Shown in pieces: positions 29,829 through 32,354 of a stretch of DNA of 36,511 nucleotides. The translations under genes were made by a program, and so were the position numbers. This DNA is from Aeromonadales bacterium. GTDB lineage: Bacteria > Pseudomonadota > Gammaproteobacteria > Enterobacterales > GCA-002770795. The first letter of the stretch is position 1; each line of letters begins with the position of its first letter. The notes beneath the pieces were generated by a model that was given only the letters and a program-made list of their open reading frames with translations, did not search any database and was not told the DNA's origin. The stretch is from contig DRNA01000068.1 of assembly GCA_011322365.1 (NCBI GenBank), forward strand, positions 1 through 36,511. The letters are read 5' to 3'.

Positions 29829-30977
<1,149 letters not shown>

Positions 30978-31018
30978 TGTTCAACCATTGAGCACCGGCA
31001 AGATCACAGGGGCCGGTC

Positions 31019-31885
31019 ATTAAACCCCTTTTTGCTGAAGGGCCATCACAGCATGTCAGAATGCTGGCGGTGGTTATTATTTCCACTACGCTGATGTTCC
31101 TGGATTATCGTCAGGAACATCTTTCCCGTCTCAGACAGGCCATTGCCACCATACTCTCCCCGTTACAATCTCTGGTCAGCTATCCGGCCGATGTGGCCAA
31201 TTGGGCCAGTGAAGAATTTCGCTCTCACGGCACACTGGTGAGCCAAAACCAGCAATTACGCGATGAAATCCTTATATTAAAGGCTCAATCTCAGAAAATG
31301 ATTGAATTAGAAGCTGAAAATTCTCGATTAAAAGCATTAATGGGATCCGTCAGTGAGTTGAGAGAACAAAGACAGATTGCCGATATTATTTCAGTGAAAG
31401 CCAGTGAATTTCATCATGAGGTTTTAATCGATAAGGGCCTGATTGACAAGGTTTATGTGGGACAACCGGTAATTGATGCAGATGGTATTATGGGCCAGGT
31501 TATCGAAGTATCTGAATTATCAGCACGCGTCATTCTGATTACCGACGAACGCCATGCTATCCCGGTAAGAGATTTAAGAAACGGTGTCCGAGCCATAGCA
31601 GCCGGTACCGGGTCACTCACCCGCCTGGAGCTCATTCAGGTACCCCATAGTGTTGATATTAAAGAAAATGATGTATTGGTTACTTCCGGTCTGGGTCAGC
31701 GTTTTCCTTCAGGGTTTCCGGTGGCCAGAGTCTCACTTATCCGACATGATCCCGGTGAAAACTATGCCTACATTGAAGCCACGCCACTGGCGAGGCTGGC
31801 CCGATCAGGTCAGGTGATTTTAATCTGGCCAAAAGACCGTCCGGCTATTGAGCCTGCTGAAAAAGGAAACGCTCATGGCCATTAA
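31019..31885 (+). CDS. mreC: Rod shape-determining protein MreC (proposed ATT start)
   Basis: MreC motifs (VIDKGLIDKVYVGQPVIDADGIMGQVIEVSELSARVILITDERHAIPV, VLVTSGLGQRFPSGFPVA). In-frame KPLFAEGPSQHVR upstream of the first ATG (31061) matches the conserved MreC N-terminus. AGGGG sits 6 nt before ATT. Confidence 0.85.
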   Translation: MKPLFAEGPSQHVRMLAVVIISTTLMFLDYRQEHLSRLRQAIATILSPLQSLVSYPADVANWASEEFRSHGTLVSQNQQLRDEILILKAQSQKMIELEAENSRLKALMGSVSELREQRQIADIISVKASEFHHEVLIDKGLIDKVYVGQPVIDADGIMGQVIEVSELSARVILITDERHAIPVRDLRNGVRAIAAGTGSLTRLELIQVPHSVDIKENDVLVTSGLGQRFPSGFPVARVSLIRHDPGENYAYIEATPLARLARSGQVILIWPKDRPAIEPAEKGNAHGH

Positions 31886-32354
31886 ACGACGCTTCGCCTA
31901 TATCCAGTTCAGTTTTCTGTTAGGGCTCGCTCTTACCATTGTGCCATTTTCCGGTAGTTTCGGTAGCTTAAATCCTCAATGGTTGGTATTAGTGGTTGCC
32001 TATTGGGGGATCTACCTTCCCGAACGCGCCGGTATCATCACCGCCTGGTTCTGGGGTTTATTTCTGGATGTTGCCCTGGGTACCCATATGGGATTGCACG
32101 CACTTTCTCTGGCTCTGGTAAGTTACATGACAGTCATCTTATATTTAAGATTGAGAATGTATCCCTTATGGCAGCAGATGTTTTTTATCTGGTTGCTTGC
32201 CGGGCTGGATAAACTGGTCACCTTTCAATTAATGAATGTGTTTATGCCCATGGAGGTTGACTGGCATTACTGGATGTCAACGCTTACCACCGCATTAATC
32301 TGGCCACTGATACTCGTCATGTTTAAATGGTATCGGCATAAGCGCCAATTTTAA
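31875..32354 (+). CDS. mreD: Rod shape-determining protein MreD
   Basis: Small polytopic protein after mreC: PQWLVLVVAYWGIYLPERAGIITAWFWGLFLDVALGTHMGLHALSLALVSY. Confidence 0.95.
   Translation: MAIKRRFAYIQFSFLLGLALTIVPFSGSFGSLNPQWLVLVVAYWGIYLPERAGIITAWFWGLFLDVALGTHMGLHALSLALVSYMTVILYLRLRMYPLWQQMFFIWLLAGLDKLVTFQLMNVFMPMEVDWHYWMSTLTTALIWPLILVMFKWYRHKRQF

Follow-up and report, generated by a model that had tools for sequence, protein, structure and literature searches.

The mreC gene of the window, the whole stretch of 36,511 nucleotides analysed here, very probably initiates translation at an AUU codon served by the Shine-Dalgarno motif AGGGG. This start would be one instance of an ancient feature in which AUU, AUC or AUA (AUH) opens mreC, and its likeliest role is to cap MreC far below MreB. 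To our knowledge, very few bacterial genes start with AUU, AUC or AUA, infC being the textbook AUU-start gene. The kind of start is already familiar from infC, pcnB and sigR; the gene concerned, the unusual breadth and the consequence for annotation appear to be new. No paper linking mreC with a non-canonical start was found in the literature searched, which is weak evidence given the thin coverage of subscription journals.

The mreC start site in the window

The gene product was identified as MreC by matches to the NCBIfam equivalog model TIGR00219 (194.6 bits, cut-off 92.75) and to Pfam PF04085 (132.6 bits, cut-off 28). On the forward strand, mreC is placed between mreB (29928 to 30977, with a canonical ATG at 29928 and a TAA stop at 30975 to 30977) and a hydrophobic ORF of 160 residues (31875 to 32354), which begins with a canonical ATG, overlaps the end of mreC and was assigned as mreD solely by its operon position. 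Ordinary starts are available for the other genes of the window.

The candidate start codon of mreC is ATT at 31019 to 31021 on the forward strand, from which the reading frame is open for 288 codons; the open frame and the family models support an entire coding sequence, from ATT to stop, of 288 amino acids (31019 to 31885, forward strand). An in-frame TGA at 30989 to 30991 of the same strand, read directly from the sequence at position −30 relative to the start, closes the mreC frame and thereby rules out an upstream canonical start; the codons between it and the ATT are GCA CCG GCA AGA TCA CAG GGG CCG GTC, with ATG, GTG or TTG at 0 of the 9. The AGGGG motif (31008 to 31012, forward strand) lies upstream of the ATT with a 6-nt spacer, and the Shine-Dalgarno duplex predicted with the 3′ end of 16S rRNA amounts to −5.7 kcal/mol for ATT 31019 versus 0 for ATG 31061. 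Downstream, the ATT is followed by AAA CCC CTT TTT GCT GAA GGG CCA TCA CAG CAT GTC AGA and then by the ATG that the ORF caller picked (31061 to 31063, forward strand), an unlikely start that corresponds to codon 15 at the beginning of the membrane helix. Alignment and codon-periodic conservation mark codons 2 to 14 (31022 to 31060, forward strand) as the conserved cytoplasmic N-terminus, KPLFAEGPSQHVR.

The homologous residue can be read from the E. coli protein, which begins from residue 1 with MKPIFSRGPSLQIR (PDB 7eft) and whose residue 1 pairs with residue 1 of the ATT-started protein. An earlier note on this DNA had proposed the ATT start partly from the E. coli N-terminus, and the alignment with 7eft shows the E. 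coli sequence it cited to be correct; the coordinates it gave, the in-frame stop, the absence of ATG, GTG and TTG, and the AGGGG with its 6-nt spacer were all confirmed on the sequence. Two further kinds of signal were sought around the site. A candidate regulatory hairpin at the Shine-Dalgarno motif, pairing 30994-30999 with 31012-31017 (ACCGGC/GCCGGT), folded no better than shuffles (z −0.18), and no Rfam family was found near the mreC start in the window. A four-codon leader, ATG TTC AAC CAT TGA (30977 to 30991), overlaps the mreB stop in frame with mreC and looks like a chance occurrence.

AUH start codons across the Gammaproteobacteria

The ATT-started MreC protein served as query against the closest genomes, strands being corrected before codon 1 was read. 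In the window's family, represented by three genomes, this comparison of close relatives, which the earlier note had suggested, gave ATT, ATC and ATA as the homologous codon. Several more families of the order carry ATT, ATC or ATA, and the Enterobacterales-like core carries ATG.

A DNA pattern with AT fixed and the third base of codon 1 left free was then applied to 369 gammaproteobacterial genomes, a search that is freer than the strict call described below and yet still demands AT. True mreC matches to this pattern read ATT, ATC or ATA with one exception (ATG), and they are preceded by a Shine-Dalgarno motif and an in-frame stop. As a safeguard against pattern bias, a 23-row protein alignment was searched over the same genomes and over one genome each from 80 additional families that scored lower. 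Starts were called automatically in 241 genomes of 160 families, a sample of genomes in a class rather than a species count, and a locus was called strictly AUH when it had an AUH codon and no ATG, GTG or TTG in the interval that runs from the stop upstream to roughly residue 4. This call yielded 123 AUH-only loci in 77 families. Another 13 loci are probably AUH as well, their chance canonical codon being distant or devoid of a Shine-Dalgarno motif and the AUH codon having a strong one of its own. The remaining 105 of the 241 loci are canonical or ambiguous, because any ATG, GTG or TTG within that interval counts as canonical in the strict call.

AUH mreC genes that lack a canonical codon are also present in single-contig genomes. 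As a control, a canonical start for mreB was present in 125 of 126 loci, located on the homologous site or no more than 3 codons away. The ATT start is beyond chance, with ATT, ATC or ATA and no canonical option in 123 of the 241 sampled genomes. About half of the sampled gammaproteobacterial families, Pseudomonas included, are thus predicted to start mreC at AUU, AUC or AUA, and what the earlier note had treated as a quirk of one genome is instead shared by much of the Gammaproteobacteria. Its central proposal, that mreC starts at ATT 31019, is strongly supported by ATT, ATC and ATA across the window's family and by AUH in at least 77 families. Among the best 30 loci of a phylum-wide search, six non-gammaproteobacterial families were seen, with a different N-terminus and with ATG or TTG available. 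At two loci, L065 (Chromatiales) and L148 (G518), the mreC start position reads GTT behind a strong Shine-Dalgarno motif, canonical codons being absent, and mreC may start at GUU there.

The coding boundary was located with a conservation profile built from one AUH locus per family (85 families). Almost no information is present from −36 to −13, a G-rich Shine-Dalgarno peak occupies −12 to −7, where the window has its AGGGG, and codon-periodic conservation, with third positions free, sets in from codon 2 onward; ATH at codon 1 is a condition of the strict call, and the third-base composition of the 85 families is no independent test. The profile also has a weak C preference at −2/−1, which was rejected as an AUH-specific signal, C at −2 preceding the mreB ATG as well. 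No out-of-frame ATG or GTG occurs between −6 and +9 in any of the 85 families. In the 23-row MreC alignment K2 and F5 are invariant and G8, P9 and R14 are at least 90% conserved, and the position of the next canonical codon downstream is not conserved, ranging from codon 10 to past codon 25 in nearly all AUH loci. Coding conservation from codon 2 together with the lack of alternative starts places the beginning of translation at codon 2 or directly ahead of it, a boundary that leaves the AUH codon as the only correctly placed start. The start position, its homology and conservation, the Shine-Dalgarno motif and the lack of alternative starts are direct observations here. Furthermore, the mean Shine-Dalgarno duplex is −6.65 kcal/mol in 136 AUH mreC loci versus −2.86 kcal/mol in 63 ATG loci, a difference that holds with one value per family (85 versus 51 families, Mann-Whitney p ~2e-12).

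Several other accounts of the ATT were weighed against initiation at this codon. The main alternative of the earlier note, an ATG misread as ATT through a sequencing or assembly error, could draw on the state of the assembly, a draft of 497 contigs with a single copy of the mreC locus. Three different non-ATG codons among members of one family cannot come from a single sequencing error, however, and with AUH-only starts recurring in at least 77 families, single-contig genomes among them, we reject it as having next to no probability; ATT 31019 is the homologous start of mreC. Translation from ATG 31061, or from GTG or TTG equivalents elsewhere, with the upstream codons untranslated, is the choice of ORF callers, and a downstream codon of this type underlies the residue numbering of P. 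aeruginosa MreC (PMC8137920). That reading is nevertheless very unlikely, given that ATG 31061 lacks a Shine-Dalgarno motif, that codons 2-14 are under amino-acid constraint with third positions free, that the first canonical codon wanders among AUH loci, and that the protein would begin inside the membrane helix with no cytoplasmic end. A canonical start upstream or in another frame, joined to mreC by frameshifting or stop readthrough, could make use of the short leader at 30977, which is in frame but ends after four codons; the clean −6 to +9 interval, the lack of coding conservation before codon 1, and upstream stops that vary in position and type among relatives make this route scarcely credible. 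Initiation at the AUH codon itself is the reading carried forward below.

Persistence of the AUH codon and its proposed role

A quickly computed maximum-likelihood tree of MreB and MreC (100 rows, 70 families), from which the start codon was excluded, was used to follow the history of that codon; six of its rows, with a canonical codon far upstream or at codons 3-4, were assigned to AUH by eye. AUH makes up 63 of the 100 rows, scattered across the whole tree. The AUH/canonical label requires at least 12 state changes versus 30 for shuffled labels, a count in which independent losses of AUH are not separable from gains because the tree is unrooted. Among AUH rows, ATT, ATC and ATA were interchanged at least 23 times. 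Judged from this comparison, the AUH start of mreC appears to be an old and conserved feature in which the third base is exchangeable, G is avoided and a strong Shine-Dalgarno motif is retained.

An AUH start that is real but merely a neutral relic, with no selection for low output, deserves more weight than the alternatives above. The stronger Shine-Dalgarno motifs at AUH loci would offset the weak codon, and many families have AUG mreC loci. If output were neutral, however, AUG should have displaced AUH: a single transition converts ATA to ATG, and in ordinary genes start-codon change towards AUG is favoured (PMC5622118). Instead, AUH has survived very deep divergence through those repeated A/C/T exchanges, and we regard the neutral reading as rather unlikely. 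Persistence of AUH despite third-base turnover would be best explained by selection against an efficient codon.

Such selection can be placed in a simple mechanism. The AGGGG motif would recruit the ribosome to AUU 31019, where initiator fMet-tRNA would decode AUU with a third-base mismatch to give a protein beginning fMet-KPLFAEGPSQHVR. IF3 would reject initiation complexes on AUU, AUC and AUA, which would limit the MreC made from the shared mreBCD message, and through this rejection MreC synthesis would be capped well below that of MreB. We infer initiation at AUU 31019 in the cell, its low yield and its sensing by IF3. IF3 is known to discriminate against AUU, AUC and AUA (PMC4611024), and with AUU and a CAU anticodon the addition of IF3 cuts full-length product in vitro (PMC10158994). 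In S. aureus, reporters with AUU or AUA and a strong Shine-Dalgarno motif give a lower yield (PMC13009471), and in Streptomyces sigR starts with GTC, which acts through IF3 to set the ratio of two proteins from one operon (PMC5472188). By analogy, translation of mreC would run far below that of mreB on the mreBCD message; what the earlier note had proposed, IF3 sensitivity of AUU initiation and a possibly lowered MreC level beside MreB, fits both this known biology and the comparative data.

A close parallel is infC of E. coli and many bacteria, which starts with AUU or AUA and, like mreC, combines AUH with a strong Shine-Dalgarno motif, deep conservation and avoidance of a canonical codon. 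In the window's own genome, infC (G000:C167, L275, ~1500) likewise has no ATG, GTG or TTG and reads GAGGAATAA-ATT-ATT-AAA-CCC. In contrast to mreC, the product of infC is IF3 itself, which reads the codon in an autoregulatory loop, whereas MreC, a membrane protein of the cell-shape system, is not known to feed back on IF3. Similarly, pcnB of E. coli has an inefficient AUU that limits a product wanted at low level, according to Binns and Masters 2002 as cited in PMC13009471; beside this E. coli AUU, the AUH start of mreC extends over at least 77 families. The sigR gene resembles mreC in that a non-canonical codon with a strong ribosome-binding site sets a partner ratio within an operon, and in having been misannotated. 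Repression by IF3 was demonstrated experimentally for sigR; unlike that of mreC, its start is GTC, kept in Streptomyces only, and the genes concerned are a sigma/antisigma pair rather than a structural operon (PMC5472188). The S. aureus genes cvfC1 (AUU), ccpN (AUA) and infC (AUA) share with mreC a conserved AUH and a strong Shine-Dalgarno motif, with lower reporter output (PMC13009471), but they are regulatory genes of Firmicutes. Non-canonical starts in Deinococcus deserti (Baudet 2010, cited in PMC3305630) were also found after annotation had missed them, though in another phylum and by proteomics.

ATG-type mreC genes bear on how specific this control may be. Their weak Shine-Dalgarno motifs suggest a general low set point rather than an IF3-specific circuit, and the comparison suggests that both groups of mreC keep a low initiation rate by different means. 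Six ATG-type loci (L010, L015, L016, L022, L024 and L029) have a strong terminator-like hairpin 7-16 nt upstream of the mreC ATG, which may be a further means of lowering mreC relative to mreB. A terminator trade-off, in which AUG mreC would have a terminator and AUH mreC none, was not established, since a loose hairpin scan also matches the AUH loci L007, L090 and L201.

A bolder and doubtful reading is that, beyond the Enterobacterales core, most gammaproteobacterial families couple MreC output to the activity of IF3. If it were true, any change in the amount of free IF3, as growth rate or ribosome supply varies, would move IF3 and MreC together and would tie cell-wall elongation to translation capacity through a start-codon class common to infC and mreC. 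An essential, core cell-shape gene with an AUH start in at least 77 families offers a natural setting for testing what purpose weak start codons serve, and mreC is studied in well-developed organisms in which the start and its effect on the MreC:MreB ratio are directly testable.

Numbering and annotation of Pseudomonas MreC

MreC annotated under ATG/GTG/TTG rules can miss the conserved cytoplasmic N-terminus, and Pseudomonas provides an example. Four loci of one family (L278, L280, L281 and L300) encode proteins that share 90-94% identity with P. aeruginosa MreC (PDB 6zlv). Three of these (L278, L280 and L281) read CTAGGAGCCGGTC-ATC-AAA-CCG-ATA-TTC, with a GTG at codon 17 as the first canonical codon, and mreC of the fourth Pseudomonas relative, L300, has an ATC start too. 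According to PMC8137920, no more than 14 residues lie ahead of its P. aeruginosa MreC construct, and these contain the membrane region. The published residues P114, F115, R175, E188 and R190 (PMC8137920) fit the relatives' proteins exactly if the GTG of codon 17 is counted as residue 1, a comparison made on the DNA of the Pseudomonas relatives and not on that of P. aeruginosa itself. This fit argues that the published numbering rests on a start within the membrane helix; by comparison with these relatives, P. aeruginosa MreC numbering is predicted to begin 16 codons late, at a GUG inside that helix. Constructs and mutants based on the GTG-started model of P. aeruginosa MreC would accordingly lack 16 residues.
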